In this document: piece by piece, positions 27,608-41,524 of the stretch
Layout of the letters: each line of letters opens with the position of its first letter
Position numbering within the stretch: the first letter of the stretch is position 1
Assembly: GCA_019310535.1 (NCBI GenBank)
Contig: JAFDED010000012.1
Span: 1-64,000 of the forward strand
Source of the DNA: Deltaproteobacteria bacterium
Lineage (GTDB): Bacteria; Desulfobacterota; JAFDED01
Direction: 5' to 3'
DNA length: 64,000 bases
Made by a program: the position numbers and the translations under genes
Notes under the pieces: generated by a model
Seen by the model: only the letters and a program-made list of their open reading frames with translations
Told to the model about the DNA's origin: nothing
The model's database searches: none

Positions 27608-28867
27608 TTAATCCTCCCATACCCGCTGAATATTCGCCCCCAGCCCGTTGAGTTTTTCTTCGATCCTCTCGTAACCGCGATCCAGGTGATACACACGGTC
27701 GATCACAGTAGTTCCACGTGCCACCAGTCCCGCCAGGACAAGAGAAGCGCTTGCACGCAAATCCGTGGCCATGACAGGTGCACCCTTCAAGTAGGGAACA
27801 CCGGTGACAATGGCCGTGTTGCCCCTGATCCGGATGTCGGCACCCATGCGCTGCAGTTCCAACACATGCATGAAACGGTTTTCGAATATCTTCTCCCGAA
27901 TGACGCTTGTCCCTTCAGCGACGCTGAGCAGCGCCATCATCTGAGCCTGCATGTCGGTAGGAAATCCGGGATACGGAAAAGTTTCGATATCCACAGGGCG
28001 AATAGGTCCTTCGCGCGTAACGCGCACCCCATCATCCGCGCGGATTATCCGGATCCCGCACGCCTCCATCTTGTCCGCAACCGCCTCCAGCATGTCCATA
28101 GGGCACTTTCGGATTTGCACGTCCCCGCCGGCAATGGCTGCAGCAGCCATAAAGGTGCCTGCCACGATTCGATCCGGGATGACCTCATGCCGGATGGGTT
28201 CCAGTCGCCTCACGCCATGGATGACCAGGGTTTCTGTCCCGATGCCCTCGATACGCGCACCCATTCGGTTGAGTACACGGGCCAGTTCGGCCACCTCGGG
28301 CTCGCAGGCCGCGTTCTGGAGCACGGTGGTGCCCTCAGCGCAGACGGCGGCCATCAACATGGTTTCTGTGCCGCCTACGGTTGACACATCGAAGCAGAAC
28401 CGGACTCCCCTCATCCTATCCACCCTGGCATCGATATATCCGCCGTCAAGCTCTATATGAACACCGAGGGCCCCAAGGCCCTTCAGGTGCTGATCCACCG
28501 GTCGGGCTCCGATGGCGCATCCACCGGGCAATGAGACTCTGGCCCTCCCCAGACGTGCCAGCAGGGGACCGAGCACCAGTACAGAGGCGCGCATGGTTCT
28601 TACCAGCTCGTAAGGCGCCTCGTGACCGGTTATGCGAGATGCATCGATACGAATTTCATCCTTTCCTACCCGCTCAACGGAGGCCCCCAGGTGTGTGAGC
28701 AGCTTGCACGCGGTGGCAACATCATTGACCCTGGGCACATTGGTGAATGTACTGCATCCACCGGCCATTAGAGAAGCGGCCATGAGGGGGAGAGTGGCGT
28801 TTTTGGCACCGCTGACCTCGATCTCGCCTTCCAGGCGCTGTCCACCCTGAATGATCATTTTGTACAT
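27608..28867 (-). CDS. murA: UDP-N-acetylglucosamine 1-carboxyvinyltransferase
   Basis: 419 aa. First committed step of peptidoglycan synthesis: transfers enolpyruvate from PEP to UDP-GlcNAc. The N-terminus [20 protein letters not shown] is typical, and the fosfomycin-target Cys is in [16 protein letters not shown]. Later motifs: [24 protein letters not shown] and a C-terminal [16 protein letters not shown]. The full length is normal. It lies 4 nt downstream of prmC as the last gene of the DUF1385-prfA-prmC-murA run. Confidence 0.97.
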
Positions 28868-28871
28868 CGCT

Positions 28872-29753
28872 TCAGCCCCCTTTCACTTCAGCGCTGACCA
28901 CGCGAGCACGACCCGAAAGGTCATGGAAAAAAACCGGGTCCTTAAAGGCCTGAGTTTCTTTGATTACGGTTCGGATCGGCTCTTGCTGTTCGTCGCCGAA
29001 TTCCAGAAAAAAACATCCACCGTCCATCAATCGATACGGAGCCTCCCGAATGATACTGCGGATGAAAGCTAATCCATTGACTCCGCCATCCAGGGCCTGG
29101 ACCGGTTCATACCGCTGCACCTCCGGCATCAAGTAGGGAATTGCGGCAGAGGGCACATAAGGCGGGTTGGAGATAATGAAATGAAAGCGAAGATCGGGAT
29201 TGATCGGATCAAATAAATTTCCGCAAATGAACCTTACATGCTCACTCACACAGTGCCGAATGGCATTGCTCCGGGCGACGGCCAGAGCCATGGGAGAGAT
29301 ATCCGTTGCGGCGATGCTCGCCCTGTGGGCCAGCGACCGCGCCAGAGCGACCGCCACGGCGCCGCACCCAGTCCCCAACTCCAGAATGCTGATTATACAG
29401 CCCGGTTCCCGACATTTTGATTCCGATGCTCTCAGCGTCTGCTCGACCAACAGCTCGGTTTCGGGCCTTGGTATGAGTACGCTTGGATTGACGGCGAAAT
29501 CCAGCGACCAGAATTCTTTGACACCGGTGATATATGCCACAGGCTCTCGCTCGGCGCGCCGTCGAACTAGATGTCGGAAGCTGCGCAGCTCATCATCATG
29601 AACGGGACGGTCGTAGTTCAAGTAGAGATCGATGCGACGGACCCCCAGTGCATGGGCCAGAAGCAACTCGGCATCCAGCCGCGGACTCCCGATTTCTTTT
29701 TCCCGAAAGAATGAGGTGGTGAGGCGGATCAGCTCTATTGTATTTCTCATCAC
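28872..29753 (-). CDS. prmC: Peptide chain release factor N5-glutamine methyltransferase
   Basis: 293 aa. Methylates the Gln of the GGQ motif in release factors, here RF1, encoded immediately upstream. SAM-binding region [16 protein letters not shown] (about residues 120-135) and the Gln-binding NPPYVPS (about 190). The start overlaps the prfA stop by 4 nt (ATGA type), so enzyme and substrate are translationally coupled, the usual prfA-prmC arrangement. Confidence 0.96.
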
Positions 29754-30847
29754 CTTTCGCGCTCAGTGGGAGACCCCTCATGAGTTGCATCGGCCAGCAA
29801 GGACTCGGACTCGAAATGCGAGGCCAGTGCATCGATGATCTCGTCCATGTCCCCCTCAAGCACCTGTTCCAGGCGGTAAAGGGTCAGGCCGATGCGATGG
29901 TCTGTAATGCGCCCCTGAGGAAAGTTATAGGTCCGTATACGCTCGCTTCGATCCCCGGAACCTACCTGATATTTGCGGGTTTTGGATATCCGCTCGGTTT
30001 GATCTTCCTGGAGCCTGTCCAAAAGCCTTGCGCGAAGGACACGCATGGCCTTGTTCTTGTTCTTGTGCTGGGATTTTTCGTCCTGACACGTCACAACAAT
30101 GCCTGAGGGGACATGGGTAATTCGAACGGCAGAATCTGTGGTGTTCACGCTTTGCCCTCCAGGGCCCGATGAGCGGTAGACATCGATTTTTAAATCTTTA
30201 GGATCGGTGTTTACCTCGATCTCCTCCGCCTCGGGCAGTATGGCCACGGTAACGGCAGAAGTGTGGATACGGCCCTGGGATTCGGTAAGGGGTACCCGCT
30301 GCACCCGGTGAACTCCGCTTTCGTATTTCAACCTGCTGAAGGCTCCTTCACCCTCAATCAGGGCGATGATCTCCTTATACCCGCCCACCGGGCTTGCGTG
30401 CTCGCTCATTACCTCAACGCGCCATTTATTGCGCTCAGCGTATCGGGTATACATCCGGAAAATGTCCATGGCGAAAAGCGCTGCCTCCTCGCCCCCCGTA
30501 CCCGCCCGGACCTCAAGAAAGATGTTTCTGCGATCATTGGGGTCACTGTGGAGCAAAAGACGCTTGAGCTGATCCTCAATGGCGGCAATGTGCTTTTTTA
30601 ATGCGCGGACTTCTTCCAGGGCCAATTCCCTTAGTTCCTCATCCCCCTCAAGGGTGATCTGATGGGCCTCTTCCAGTTGCCGGGATAGCTTTTTATACTG
30701 CTGGTAAGTTTTTACCAAATCATCCAACTCGGCATGCTCCCGGGCGAGGAGCAGAAACTCATTGCGATTCCGGATAATCTCCGGCTTGCTCAGTAGCCCA
30801 TTTATCTCCTCATGGCGCGCTTCGATCTCTTGCAGTTTATCTAACAT
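29750..30847 (-). CDS. prfA: Peptide chain release factor 1
   Basis: 365 aa from ATG 30847, chosen because GGGAGGG sits just upstream; a longer frame starting at 30874 would overlap the upstream gene more and lacks an SD. RF1 recognises UAA and UAG. The GGQ loop is in SSGPGGQSVNTTDSAVRITH, followed by DEKSQHKNKNKA. The coding start overlaps the end of the DUF1385 gene by about 11 nt. Confidence 0.97.
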   Translation of the reverse strand: MLDKLQEIEARHEEINGLLSKPEIIRNRNEFLLLAREHAELDDLVKTYQQYKKLSRQLEEAHQITLEGDEELRELALEEVRALKKHIAAIEDQLKRLLLHSDPNDRRNIFLEVRAGTGGEEAALFAMDIFRMYTRYAERNKWRVEVMSEHASPVGGYKEIIALIEGEGAFSRLKYESGVHRVQRVPLTESQGRIHTSAVTVAILPEAEEIEVNTDPKDLKIDVYRSSGPGGQSVNTTDSAVRITHVPSGIVVTCQDEKSQHKNKNKAMRVLRARLLDRLQEDQTERISKTRKYQVGSGDRSERIRTYNFPQGRITDHRIGLTLYRLEQVLEGDMDEIIDALASHFESESLLADATHEGSPTERER

Positions 30848-31820
30848 CTTTTCCCTCCCTGAATGGGAGATCACACCTGTTTTGCTCCATTTCCAGGGTG
30901 CTCTTCAAGGCTGTCAGGGCGACCTCAAGTTGCTCAGCCGTGGGCTCGCGTGTGGTCATACTCTGCAGCCATAGACCAGGCCTGGTGAGAGCCTGAAGAA
31001 TGAGGTTCCGAGGACGGCGATCAGCCAGTTTGATGATTTCATACGATATCCCTGCAATGGGGACAAAAAGCAAGATTTTGATCACCATGATTGCCAGATG
31101 GATTTCGTATCTTCCCAGAGTTCGAAACAACGGTACCATGGGGAAGAGAGCGGAAAAGACTATAATGCTGAGAGTCAGCACCAGCAGGATAAAAGCGGTC
31201 CCGCAATGCGGGTGAATTGTGGGAAAGGGCATGGCTCCCTCCAGGGTAAGCGGTTGGCCGGCTTCGTATGCATGAATCGACTTGTGCTCTGCGCCGTGAT
31301 ATTGAAATACCCGCCGTATGTCCTTCATCAGGGATATGGTCCGAATATAAAGGATGAAAAATGCGAGTTTCAATACTCCATCCACAACATGGAATCGGAC
31401 GGTCTCCACCCCCATGTCCGTGTTTCCAACCCTTCCCATTATCAAGGTGAGCACATGGGGAATGACTACAAAAAACAGAATCCCCACGCCTGCCCCAATG
31501 GCTACGAAAATACCCATTGCCCATCGGTCTTTTGCTTTATCCGGGCTGTTTGCCGCCTCACCGGCCTCATCCTCCATATTCTGTTGCGCGGAGTACATAA
31601 GAGCCTGGATCCCTTTAATCAGTGCTTCCACCAGGACGACCACGCCTCTAAAGAAGGGCTTACCCAAGAATGGCATCCGTTCAACCACAGATACCAATCG
31701 CTCCCGCTTGATCTTCATTTCGCCGTTGCGTTTCCGGATCACGACGCTCAGCGACCCCTGGGTGCGCATCATGACGCCTTCAATAACCGCCTGGCCTCCA
31801 ACCTGGATTTTCTCGCTCAT
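30837..31820 (-). CDS. DUF1385 (YqhQ-like) integral membrane protein
   Basis: 327 aa. N-terminus GGQAVIEGVMMRTQGSLSVV is the DUF1385 hallmark, followed by several membrane segments (about residues 105-130, 150-170, 210-240, 245-270) and the conserved YHGAEHKSIHAYEAGQPLT and HPHCGTAFILLVL with several His. Function unknown, but members are widely found next to rpmE and prfA, as here (rpmE 317 bp upstream, prfA overlapping). Confidence 0.9.
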   Translation of the reverse strand: MSEKIQVGGQAVIEGVMMRTQGSLSVVIRKRNGEMKIKRERLVSVVERMPFLGKPFFRGVVVLVEALIKGIQALMYSAQQNMEDEAGEAANSPDKAKDRWAMGIFVAIGAGVGILFFVVIPHVLTLIMGRVGNTDMGVETVRFHVVDGVLKLAFFILYIRTISLMKDIRRVFQYHGAEHKSIHAYEAGQPLTLEGAMPFPTIHPHCGTAFILLVLTLSIIVFSALFPMVPLFRTLGRYEIHLAIMVIKILLFVPIAGISYEIIKLADRRPRNLILQALTRPGLWLQSMTTREPTAEQLEVALTALKSTLEMEQNRCDLPFREGKDVR

Positions 31821-36698: not shown

Positions 36699-37562
36699 AT
36701 GACTGAGAATAAATGGATGGTCTTGGAGCAAGCGGTCCGTCTCATCAACGATGGCGACAAAGTTGCTGTTGGTGGGCATATGGAAATGGCTCCCCTGGCT
36801 CTGAAAAGAGAAATGATTCGCCAGGGCAGGAAAAATTTGCGGCTGGTGACGGTACCCCGCGGAGCAATCGGCGTGGATATGCTCATCGGGGCGGGCATGG
36901 TACATTCCATAGAGACAGCACAGGTGGTGATGGATGAGTACGGCTCGGCCCCCAACTTCCGCAAATCCGTGGAACAGGGGAGAATCCAGGTGCTGGATCA
37001 TTCCTGACCCGCCTTGCTCTCAGGGTTCCGGGCCGGAGCCATGGGCATCCCTTTCATCCCTGTGCGGGGAATTATCGGGTCCGATTACATGCGGGTTCGA
37101 GAGGACTTTAAGGTCATCCCAAACCCTTACGGGGGCGATGACGTCCTGGTGGTTCCCGCTATAGTGCCTGACGTGGCCATTCTCCATGGCTTTCAGGCAG
37201 ACAGCCGCGGCAATGTCCTTGTTGAGCGCAAATCGGACATAGATCTGGCTGTCTTCGCCAGCAGGAAGGTGATCGCAACGGTTGAAGAGATGGTTCCAAA
37301 TGGAAAACTTCATCCCACCGCGCGGCGCGAGCTCATATCGTGGATCCATTTCGACGCGGTGGTTGAAGTCCCTTACGGCGCACATCCCACCGCATGCCCG
37401 GAGGTATACGGGGTGGACGAGACTCACGTCCGGGAATATCTCCACTCGGCCAGGGACGGGGAAAGTTTTTCCCGATACCTGGAGCGGTACGTCTTTACGG
37501 TAGGAAACCATGCGGAATACCTTTCGCGTATCGGCATCCGGTGTAAGAGCAAGGCTGTTTGA
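36699..37562 (+). CDS. CoA-transferase alpha subunit (glutaconate CoA-transferase A-like) interrupted by an in-frame TGA
   Basis: 288 codons with a good SD (GGGAGGGAA). The frame is broken only by TGA at 37005-37007 (codon 103); both halves are well-formed and in the same frame. First half: AVRLINDGDKVAVGGHMEM, MIRQGRKNLRLVTVPRGAIG. Second half: FRAGAMGIPFIPVRGIIGSD, VVPAIVPDVAILHGFQADSR, LISWIHFDAVVEVPYGAHPT. The break lies in a VLDHS-TGA-PALLS context where a Cys would fit. Either a nonsense mutation (or sequencing error) or selenocysteine insertion; a weak stem-loop follows, but no convincing SECIS could be drawn. The intact beta subunit gene starts 15 nt after the stop. Confidence 0.75.
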
Positions 37563-37577
37563 GAGGAAAGTATTATA

Positions 37578-38339
37578 ATGAACGACGGTACTCTCACTTT
37601 AGGCGAAGAGATGATGATCGCGGCAATTGCGCGCGAGGTCCGAGACGAAAAAATAGCGGCGGTGGGGACTCTATCGCCCATTCCTGCGGCGGCATGCCTG
37701 CTGGCCAGTCATACCACCGCACCCGGGAGTATCATCCTCATCCTGGGAGACCCCATGTGGCCTATTGATCGCGGCACATCACAGCTTTTTGATTTGGCCC
37801 AGCGCGGCTTGATGGATCTGTTTTTCCTCTCCGGGGCACAGATCGATCGCCGGGGTAACATTAACCTCCACGTCATCGGCGATTATCACCGCCCGAAAAT
37901 CCGCCTGCCAGGCGGGGCCGGCAGCGCCGTGCTCTATTACACGGCCCACCGGGTTATCCTTTTCAAGACGAGCCACACGCGCAGGGACTTCGTACAACAG
38001 GTGGACTTCATCACCAGCCCGGGTCATACACCCCAGCTATCCCGCTCCTATAGGCCGGGAGGGCCATACAAAGTTATAACTCCTCTGGCGGTTATGGCTT
38101 TTAACCGGAAAGAAGGAATCCTGGAACTGGAGTCGGTGCACCCCGGCGTTACCGTTGAGCAAGTGCTGGAAAACACGGGCTTTGACCTGCCGATGCCCGA
38201 CACGGTGGCGGAGACAGCGCCCCTTAGCGAAGAACAACGCCATGTTTTGAAGACAACCGTGCGAGCCGAGATTCAGCGGGTCTACCCTGCTTTCGCCCTG
38301 AGGTTGGGCGCACCGGAGAAGACCATGGATTCCGCATGA
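37578..38339 (+). CDS. CoA-transferase beta subunit (class I family), catalytic Glu not conserved
   Basis: 253 aa. Opening TLGEEMMIAAIAREVRDEKIAAVGTLSPIPAAACLLA matches CoA-transferase B subunits, as do GGAGSAVLYYTAHRVIL and VITPLAVMAFNRKEGILELESVHPGVT. Where glutaconate or 3-oxoacid CoA-transferases have the catalytic Glu (ESG/ENG), this protein has ILGDPMWP (residues 56-62), so the usual gamma-glutamyl-CoA chemistry looks impossible without a substitute. Some relatives (IpdAB) act as CoA-dependent ring hydrolases without that Glu. It partners the interrupted alpha subunit just upstream. Confidence 0.8.
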   Translation: MNDGTLTLGEEMMIAAIAREVRDEKIAAVGTLSPIPAAACLLASHTTAPGSIILILGDPMWPIDRGTSQLFDLAQRGLMDLFFLSGAQIDRRGNINLHVIGDYHRPKIRLPGGAGSAVLYYTAHRVILFKTSHTRRDFVQQVDFITSPGHTPQLSRSYRPGGPYKVITPLAVMAFNRKEGILELESVHPGVTVEQVLENTGFDLPMPDTVAETAPLSEEQRHVLKTTVRAEIQRVYPAFALRLGAPEKTMDSA

Positions 38340-38633: not shown

Positions 38634-38658
38634 AAAAAAAGGGGCACTTCGTGCCCCT
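38634..38658 (-). terminator. Rho-independent terminator of the 42-aa secreted-peptide gene
   Basis: Minus strand: AGGGGCAC/GTGCCCCT stem (38640-38658) with a 3-nt loop followed by a T-run (38634-38640). Homologous in sequence to the terminator at 39079-39101. Confidence 0.8.
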
Positions 38659-38734
38659 CAGTCATGAATTCATATGTCATTTTCGGGGAAGAGAAATAGT
38701 AATTCCCCTCACCCTTCCCGGCGTAATCGGGTGA

Positions 38735-38863
38735 TCATGGTCTGTAATCTCTTGGAAAGCCCCAAAACTGTCTTCCCCTTTCTTCCGCCAACACAGATGT
38801 GGAGAGAGAAAGCAGGAACGCGACTGCGATCAGAAACCCCAAAAGTTGTTTTTTCGTGTCCAT
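38735..38863 (-). CDS. 42-aa secreted peptide with one RQxWGFP unit
   Basis: Too short for ordinary ORF calling. MDTKKQLLGFLIAVAFLLSL, then STSVLA, gives a clear Sec signal peptide of 26 residues; the predicted mature product is only 16 residues, EERGRQFWGFPRDYRP. It is a paralogue of the 126-aa protein at 39163-39543: same MDTxKQ start, same signal peptide, same RQ-W-GFP-RDY-P unit. The promoter-like region (38976-39003) and terminator are shared too. Unlike the longer gene, no AGGAGG precedes the start, so it may be weakly translated or decaying. Confidence 0.6.
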   Translation of the reverse strand: MDTKKQLLGFLIAVAFLLSLSTSVLAEERGRQFWGFPRDYRP

Positions 38864-38975
38864 TATTGTATTTTCTTATTAGATGTTTATTCACCACAAT
38901 TTAGTCCACAAATTTGTTACACATGATCATTTCCCTGTCTGATCTTTTCTTCTATTGCCTATTATCTTACTCAAG

Positions 38976-39003
38976 GATGTAATCACTAAAATTTTCCCGT
39001 CAA
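38976..39003 (-). promoter_or_regulatory. Promoter-like region of the short RQNWGFP gene
   Basis: Minus strand: TTGACG (39003-38998), 16-nt spacer, TACATC (38981-38976). The spacer is almost identical to that of the longer paralogue (39656-39683), including GAAAATTTTAGTGAT. Confidence 0.5.
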
Positions 39004-39078
39004 GTGGTGCGGTTATACACCAATTTTGTTTATGGCAGGTCAGGTATAGCCAACAGACATCCCGCAAAATTCAACGAG

Positions 39079-39101
39079 AAAGGGGCATATAGTGCCCCTT
39101 T
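39079..39101 (-). terminator. Rho-independent terminator of the 126-aa RQNWGFP gene
   Basis: AAAGGGGCA (39079-39087) pairs with TGCCCCTTT (39093-39101) around a 5-nt loop; A and T runs flank both sides. About 60 nt after the gene's stop. Confidence 0.75.
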
Positions 39102-39162
39102 CCGTGATATAACACTGTTTCACGTTGCATTCCAAGAAGAACCCTTTTTCTGCAGTGACTTA

Positions 39163-39543
39163 TTACCTGAAATAATCCAACAGGTCGTATTCTGGACTGT
39201 AATCTTTTGGAAAGCCCCAATTCTGTCTGGATTCCAATCCTAACCGATCAACATTATCGATGGTGATGGTTCTCTTGACCTCTTTCTCCTCCACGGCGCC
39301 CGTTAATTTAGATTTGAACTGCCCCGGATGGTAGTCTCTTGGAAAGCCCCAATTCTGTCTGGATGGTGCACCTGTCTCGTCGCTCTCCATCATTTGCCCG
39401 TGCGTATATCCGCCTGGCGTGAAATCACTCGGAAAACCCCAGTTCTGCCTGGATTTTCTTTCTTCCGCCAAAACTGATGCGGAGAGAGAAAGCAGGAACG
39501 CGACCGCTATCAGAGATGCAAAAATTTGTTTTCTCGTGTCCAT
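39163..39543 (-). CDS. 126-aa secreted protein with three SRQNWGFP repeats
   Basis: Start ATG 39543 is fixed by AGGAGG seven bases upstream. Signal peptide residues 1-26 (FASLIAVAFLLSLSASVLA). The mature part has three near-identical units: SRQNWGFPSDFTP (31-43), SRQNWGFPRDYHP (61-73) and SRQNWGFPKDYSP (105-117), with unrelated spacers of 17 and 31 residues and an acidic-aromatic tail DLLDYFR. No Cys, no membrane segment after the signal. I do not recognise the family. A one-unit paralogue lies downstream with matching promoter and terminator, so this is a duplicated mini-locus. A role as exported binding, signalling or matrix peptide is only a guess. Confidence 0.75.
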   Translation of the reverse strand: MDTRKQIFASLIAVAFLLSLSASVLAEERKSRQNWGFPSDFTPGGYTHGQMMESDETGAPSRQNWGFPRDYHPGQFKSKLTGAVEEKEVKRTITIDNVDRLGLESRQNWGFPKDYSPEYDLLDYFR

Positions 39544-39655
39544 AATCATACCTCCTATTAAAAGATACTCACTTGCATTTAATCTGCCAAAATTCATCTC
39601 GCAGGGTCATTTGCCTGTTCAATCCCTGCTTCTATTTCCTATTAACATAGTCAAG

Positions 39656-39683
39656 AATGTAATCACTAAAATTTTCCTGTCAA
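39656..39683 (-). promoter_or_regulatory. Promoter-like region of the 126-aa RQNWGFP gene
   Basis: Minus strand: TTGACA (39683-39678), 16-nt spacer, TACATT (39661-39656), about 110 nt upstream of ATG 39543; conserved in the paralogue. A second TTGACT follows directly, so the exact box is uncertain. Confidence 0.5.
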
Positions 39684-40141
39684 GGGATACGGAAATGCGA
39701 AATCAATTTTCGCTCTGCGCTCCCTTTTGAGGGAAATTCCAAGAGTTCTACTGTAACCGGACTTGCTGTTTTCTGCGAAGTCCTTCAGCCTATTGCCCGC
39801 CCACTGGCCGTCACACGTTTTGTCCATGCCAGTGAAAACTTAGCCGGAGAGATCTGGAATATTTCTGGATCATGCGGTGGTATTAATTGAACGGGTGAAT
39901 CGGGAAGAGTAATAATCAGTCCGTTGGAATGAAATTGAAGAAGACGGATATAATGACCTGCTGTGCAGCGGCGGACACCATCCCTTCGCACGCTCTGGCA
40001 TGGTGTGTTACCCGATTTTTTCAGTCAATGAAATCGTATCGATATTTCACGCATACGGAACCGGAAACCGCCCTTCAATGCTAAAATAAATGCTTTCTAC
40101 AGGTTAAGACCTTTTCTCAGCGCAATTGCCGCTGGTAAAAG

Positions 40142-40831
40142 TCAGTCTCTGGAAGACGTGCCATGAAAGATCGAAGGCGGTGATTTAAAAGATGGCTGCG
40201 TCAACAGCTTCTTTAACTGCATCGGGCTATTCTTATACATTTTTATGACCTCTTTGTAGCCCATGGTTTTTACTACTTCTATACCTTTTTCTAAGTAGCA
40301 ATATCTTTCGAGTTCGCACTTTGATTTTATATCCTCTTCAATCAGGGAATAGGGTAAATTATTCACATGGTTTTTTACAAAATGAGGCAACAAAGCGTGA
40401 ACCAGACCCCCAACCACTGCCTCTTCCACTGCCATCCAATCTTTTACAATTTTCTCCATCTTTCCTTTGCTCGTTACGGAGTTCAGAACTATTTGCTCTT
40501 CGATCTCCCTATGGGATTGCTCCCTCAGAGCAATGTGTAACGTCTCTTCAATAGGAACCATAAGAACGGTATAGGGATTTTTTGTGCAATTTTGCCAGAT
40601 GGTATAGTTATCCTCTACAAATTTAAAGGTGCCGTTTTCTCGTATATAGATGTTCGTCGTATAAGAACCGACAATGCCCGTAAAGACCTTGCCGCTTAAT
40701 TTAATCGTTGTAATCGGTGCTGCTTTTTTCGGGTTAAAAAAGGAAAATGTGGCATTGAATTCTCTTGCAAGATTATGGACCAAAAACACTGTCATACCTC
40801 TATCCGGGATATCAGGTCTTTCCAGAAGCAA
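40142..40831 (-). CDS. Unknown protein, probable 3' half of the preceding Tat-lipoprotein gene
   Basis: 229 codons from a TTG at 40831; the first ATG is 40795. I do not recognise the family. The sequence is alpha/beta in character (FKFVEDNYTIWQNC, YTVLMVPIEETLHIALREQS) with a long helical part (VEEAVVGGLVHALLPHFVKN). The frame is open upstream beyond the TTG (LNEKIQTLLLERPDIPD) into the end of the upstream ORF, in the +1 frame relative to it. With no SD and no good start, it may be the C-terminal half of one ~390-residue protein split by a frameshift. Confidence 0.45.
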   Translation of the reverse strand: MLLERPDIPDRGMTVFLVHNLAREFNATFSFFNPKKAAPITTIKLSGKVFTGIVGSYTTNIYIRENGTFKFVEDNYTIWQNCTKNPYTVLMVPIEETLHIALREQSHREIEEQIVLNSVTSKGKMEKIVKDWMAVEEAVVGGLVHALLPHFVKNHVNNLPYSLIEEDIKSKCELERYCYLEKGIEVVKTMGYKEVIKMYKNSPMQLKKLLTQPSFKSPPSIFHGTSSRD

Positions 40832-40847
40832 GGTTTGTATCTTTTCA

Positions 40848-41309
40848 TTAAGGGTTATCGACTTTCGTCTTATCCAAAGTATAATCTATCACTTCGTTGC
40901 AATAGTTCTGAAATAGAGTTGCATATTCCGCCCTCTGTTCCGGGACAAACAACAACCTATGCTTAAAGGAATCTATTCTCCACCGAAGCTCTCCCCCACC
41001 AAGGTCTTTTTGCATTTTTCTTATCAGGTCTGCATGATCATTAAAATAATCAAGACTTATTCTATAACACTCTCCATCAATATCCTCCTCAAAATCGTTA
41101 AAAACAAACAGGGGCTCTTCCCTCTCTGCGAGCTTGATTAATTCTACTAGGCGGGAATAGCCCTTTGAAGATTGAGGGATATGAGACATACAAGATGTTG
41201 CCATCAGGAATGTGCAGCTTAATGCCGTCTTTTTCAAGAAATCCCTTCTTGTAATCTCCGCACCTCTTTTGCTGCCGCTAATTCTCTCATGATTTTCTGA
41301 TCGGTTCAT
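40848..41309 (-). CDS. Tat-exported lipoprotein, unknown function (possible 5' half of a split gene)
   Basis: About 153 aa from ATG 41309 (a longer start at 41333 is possible). The N-terminus has a twin-arginine signal, ITRRDFLKKTALSCTFLMAT, ending in a lipobox-like cysteine (MATSC). After it come about 120 residues of unrecognised sequence (LVELIKLAEREEPLFVFNDF, DYFNDHADLIRKMQKDLGGG). It stops at TAA 40848 in the context CCT-TAA-TGA, while the +1 frame stays open into the next ORF. Probably anchored on the outside of the inner membrane or in the periplasm, perhaps folded with a cofactor given the Tat route. Confidence 0.55.
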   Translation of the reverse strand: MNRSENHERISGSKRGAEITRRDFLKKTALSCTFLMATSCMSHIPQSSKGYSRLVELIKLAEREEPLFVFNDFEEDIDGECYRISLDYFNDHADLIRKMQKDLGGGELRWRIDSFKHRLLFVPEQRAEYATLFQNYCNEVIDYTLDKTKVDNP

Positions 41310-41524
41310 CACGAATTCCCGTTCGTGCAGCAACTGAATGTCCCGAAAATCCGCCGTCTGATCCTCTGGACCGAATTAATCGAATTACATCTCATGAGGG
41401 ATGGGGCAACTTGAGCAGTTTGAAGCCGGCTTCGGTGTCTTTCCCTCATCTTTTGCTTATTACCCTGCATCGTCCGCTCCCTCTTCCCTTTTGCGCGCGT
41501 TGATCAGGACTCTATAAAAAACTT

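Follow-up and report, generated by a model that had tools for sequence, protein, structure and literature searches.

The minus strand of the 64,000-nucleotide stretch analysed here (hereafter, the window) carries two complete transcription units between positions 39684 and 38639, the first encoding a protein of 126 residues and the second a protein of 42 residues. In each of them a promoter block containing TTGAC and a leader precede the gene, whose product has a Sec-type signal peptide that ends in VLA immediately before a glutamate and at least one RQ[NF]WGFPxD[YF]xP unit; a hairpin and T-rich sequence come after the gene. In the first unit, the promoter/operator block (39629-39684; CTTGACAGGAAAATTTTAGTGATTACATTCTTGACTATGTTAATAGGAAATAGAAG) includes TTGACA-16-TACATT, a sigma-70-like match (10/12) that is equal best in the region, and is followed by a 5' leader (39544-39628) with a GGAGG ribosome-binding site seven bases before the ATG at 39543. 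A mechanical list of open reading frames gives this gene a 144-aa form from an upstream ATG; because the Shine-Dalgarno sequence fits the ATG at 39543, we assign it 126 aa (39166-39543 without the stop codon), comprising a signal peptide of approximately residues 1-26 and a mature protein of 100 residues. The latter holds three RQNWGFP units, at 39415-39450 (unit 1; RQNWGFPSDFTP), 39325-39360 (unit 2; RQNWGFPRDYHP) and 39193-39228 (unit 3; RQNWGFPKDYSP), and a terminator-like hairpin of 11 pairs lies downstream (39077-39103) in a region that folds at -21.2 kcal/mol. The second unit begins with the conserved counterpart of the promoter/operator block (38949-39004), and its 5' leader (38864-38948) has AAGAAAATACAATAATG where the long gene has its GGAGG, and no Shine-Dalgarno sequence. 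The short gene (38735-38863 with the stop codon, 38738-38863 without) encodes a signal peptide followed by EERGRQFWGFPRDYRP, which contains a single motif, and is succeeded by a terminator-like hairpin of 9 pairs with a T run (38639-38659; region folding at -15.6 kcal/mol). A preliminary description of this locus had reported a duplication of the whole transcription unit, with both open frames, a shared promoter-proximal block, signal peptides and hairpins, three motif copies against one, and a short copy without Shine-Dalgarno sequence; all of these are present in the sequence.

The two genes are tandem copies of one unit, which comprises promoter block, leader, signal peptide, motif, hairpin terminator and some downstream flank. 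Their resemblance far exceeds what chance would give: in a protein search of the genome itself, the long protein found the short one at E=3e-12, and the 5' parts of both copies align over 227 bases (~230 bp) with 77% identity (E=1.5e-42). Similarity between the copies resumes past the hairpin (ATTTTG...GCCATAAACAAAA), and the duplication thus spans everything from the promoter to beyond the terminator. Conservation along this segment is uneven: the promoter block is identical at 50 of 56 bases (89%) and the signal-peptide sequence at 75 of 87 (86%), whereas the 5' leader between them retains 53 of 82 (65%). The first two were each kept better than the leader (P about 0.001 each, with boundaries chosen after viewing the alignment). 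Protein, DNA, promoter and motif searches of the 4.8-Mb genome revealed no third copy; with up to 3 mismatches allowed, the core of the promoter block occurs nowhere else in it, and its sole good profile matches are the four motif units.

By eye, the N-terminus of both proteins reads as a Sec signal peptide, with KQ, the hydrophobic stretch LIAVAFLLSLS and then VLA, suggesting that both products would be exported and cleaved. The -3/-1 rule places the predicted cleavage between the A and E of V-L-A-E, from which the 16-residue product of the short gene (EERGRQFWGFPRDYRP) follows, as the preliminary description had predicted. The mature long protein, at 100 aa, contains no cysteine and is hydrophilic (GRAVY -1.26). 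AlphaFold2, run on the single sequence with no alignment, folded nothing with confidence beyond the signal helix (mean pLDDT 58, pTM 0.23). The mature protein may therefore be largely disordered, low model confidence without an alignment being weak evidence.

The repeats within the long protein allowed us to compare changes at the DNA and protein levels. Between units 1 and 2, 11 of 36 bases but only 3 of 12 residues have changed (P=0.0013, against random placement of as many changes). Furthermore, in the SRQNWGFP core of the same two units all 8 residues are identical and the four base differences are all synonymous (P=0.00075); units 2 and 3 have diverged too little for the comparison to be informative (P=0.16). 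Each value was obtained with a simple test that places changes at random, and on few sites. Within the long copy, selection acts on the motif at the protein level, a constraint that was measured within this one locus. The linkers between units differ in both length and sequence. No common site flanks the units, which are preceded by ERKS, GAPS or GLES and followed by GGY, GQF or EYD, and the flanks of the four units provide no dibasic or other cleavage site that brackets all cores. The long product is of a general kind, a small repeat protein with a repeated unit under protein-level selection, and its export by Sec is predicted from sequence.

We found no relatives of these proteins. Nothing scored above cut-off in Pfam or NCBIfam, in agreement with the earlier statement that no named family is known to have this repeat, and the long protein had no match among PDB sequences. 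In PHROGs, residues 1-33 of both proteins weakly matched phrog_33684, a family of unknown function (E=0.025 and 0.044); the match covers essentially the signal peptide and is not significant evidence of kinship. Profile searches with the two proteins and the four units across 395 genomes of the phylum returned only chance-level matches outside the genome itself. Those inspected were signal-peptide resemblances or lay out of frame or antisense, and none was a protein with signal peptide plus motif; matches inspected in genomes G076 and G001 were likewise unrelated. An exact scan for the degenerate pattern RQxWGFPxD[YF] in 84,980 species genomes and in viral contigs yielded no homologue: it matched once in the genome contigs (L039) and once in the viral contigs (L038), and neither frame encodes a small exported protein. 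We also considered a phage-like or plasmid origin and a structured RNA; there was no match in plasmids, no relative among viral contigs, and no Rfam match in the window. RQNWGFP was found in no paper of the literature searched. The relatives listed for this genome share only its phylum, and records very near it may be missing from the contig collections. With none of the listed relatives closer than phylum, the failure to find the gene in other genomes tells more about how the lineage was sampled than about the gene itself. What had been put forward as a possible new class is, as far as shown, an orphan protein pair in a phylogenetically isolated genome.

On one side the locus is bordered by CoA-transferase genes on the plus strand (36699-38339), and on the other by a gene without known family in two frames, followed by murJ, rpsT (recognised from its sequence), holA and leuS. 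The CoA transferase, MurJ and the split familyless gene give no functional hint. Among the neighbouring genes scanned with NCBIfam and Pfam, which included part of the small ORFs of the window, we found no RiPP maturation enzyme, dedicated transporter, peptidase or sensor. A homologue of the upstream neighbour is present in G076 (L072), and no RQ-W-GFP gene was seen among the ORFs beside that homologue. The split gene itself (40142-41333, minus strand) consists of ORFs of 161 aa and 229 aa in different frames that look like parts of one protein, with a weak Tat-like signal at the N-terminus; its G076 counterpart has 353 aa (L072 9695-10756) and is 40% identical over the first part. By this comparison the split gene reads as frameshifted or as an assembly error. 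In addition, the first CoA-transferase subunit (36699-37562, plus strand) has an in-frame stop at 37005-37007 that divides it into ORFs of 102 and 182 aa. Elsewhere in the window, murA, a prmC-like gene, prfA and a gene for a DUF1385 protein stand in a row as a housekeeping cluster (27611-31820, minus strand).

The unit of the short copy matches unit 3 at 32 of 36 bases, unit 2 at 29 of 36 and unit 1 at 26 of 36, while the signal peptide of the short gene matches that of the long gene. The simplest account of this combination is that repeats recombined and the array contracted, or that gene conversion took place, and the short copy probably arose in one of these ways after the tandem duplication. 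It is quite possible that the short copy is a contracted remnant heading to loss beside a long gene that is functional, a reading compatible with the other interpretations of the long gene. Consistent with such decay, the short copy lacks a Shine-Dalgarno sequence, its unit differs from unit 3 by no synonymous and three nonsynonymous codons, and constraint on the signal-peptide region, taken by itself, is not significant between the copies (P=0.15). Against it, the short copy keeps an open frame, signal peptide, motif, promoter block and terminator, and its promoter and signal-peptide sequences have diverged less than the leader. The preliminary description had named a random pattern of synonymous and nonsynonymous change between the copies among the findings that would refute its reading; the internal repeats of the long copy depart from such a pattern, and the comparison of the short unit with unit 3 gives no sign of protein-level constraint. 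That both genes are open frames by chance alone, in duplicated DNA that codes for nothing, would fit the lack of homologues in anything searched, but the signal peptide, Shine-Dalgarno sequence, terminators and silent substitutions in the units already largely refute this very improbable explanation.

A different possibility is that a protease acting after Sec export frees RQNWGFPxDYxP peptides, which would carry a signal or inhibit competitors; the long protein would yield three such peptides and the short one would give the 16-mer directly, as in fungal pheromone repeat precursors. It has been previously reported that fungal KEPs, such as the yeast alpha-mating factor and ustiloxin-type RiPP precursors, combine a signal peptide with several near-identical cores and spacers (PMC7329392). 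The present proteins resemble these Kex2-processed repeat proteins in architecture (PMC7329392): near-identical short cores with spacers follow a signal peptide, the second gene is just a signal peptide and one core, and many KEPs also lack homologues. However, Kex2 sites bracket the fungal cores, whereas here the residues flanking the units are not conserved and the host is bacterial, so that the analogy is one of architecture alone. Because the units lack bracketing cleavage sites and the neighbours scanned encode neither a RiPP enzyme nor a sensor or dedicated peptidase, the peptide precursor is less supported, and we regard it as unlikely. More doubtful still is the specific proposal, drawn from this analogy, of a bacterial counterpart of the fungal precursors with a single-copy companion gene, whose RQNWGFP-type signalling or inhibitory peptides would be released by a protease as yet unnamed. 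The RiPP-like precursor suggested earlier found no support either: the neighbouring genes scanned included neither a maturation enzyme nor a dedicated transporter, and the units share no flanking cleavage site. Bacterial multi-core precursors such as graspetides (PMC8939145) share with this locus a short peptide gene and repeated cores, but RiPPs carry a leader that is recognised by maturation enzymes, as a rule encoded close by, and we found none among the neighbours scanned; moreover, the N-terminus here is, by eye, an ordinary Sec signal peptide and not a distinct conserved leader. The protein could also be a small part of the cell-surface structure or matrix, with the aromatic motif mediating self-association; this would agree with its predicted export, its repeated aromatic/proline motif and its polar linkers. 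Nevertheless, there are three copies alone, the strong compositional bias and regular spacing expected of matrix proteins are absent, and a 16-residue product could hardly form structure, making this role rather improbable.

Because the motif is constrained, the linkers are variable, the predicted product is exported, hydrophilic and cysteine-free, and the structure model is of low confidence, we tentatively favour a lineage-restricted, Sec-exported, mostly disordered multivalent motif protein that docks on an envelope or extracellular partner. On this docking interpretation, the tandem duplication copied the complete transcription unit of a lineage-restricted gene, whose small, cysteine-free product would be exported by Sec and mostly disordered. 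The long copy would display RQ[NF]WGFPxD[YF]xP three times, joined by flexible linkers that are not alike in sequence, and the short copy once. Repetition of the motif suggests a binding role, in which it may act as a short linear docking element for one repeated site on a protein or glycan partner in the envelope or outside the cell. The long form could gain avidity from its three copies, and the short form would be monovalent under a near-identical promoter.

At this locus the internal repeats serve as their own comparison, so that protein-level constraint can be read without any homologue, and the pair offers a neat example, on a small scale, of a taxon-restricted gene for an exported protein in which the part under selection can be seen directly. 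Should the motif turn out to dock on a partner or to be released as a peptide, a new interaction at the envelope or a new signal would be added for a lineage with few relatives available for comparison.
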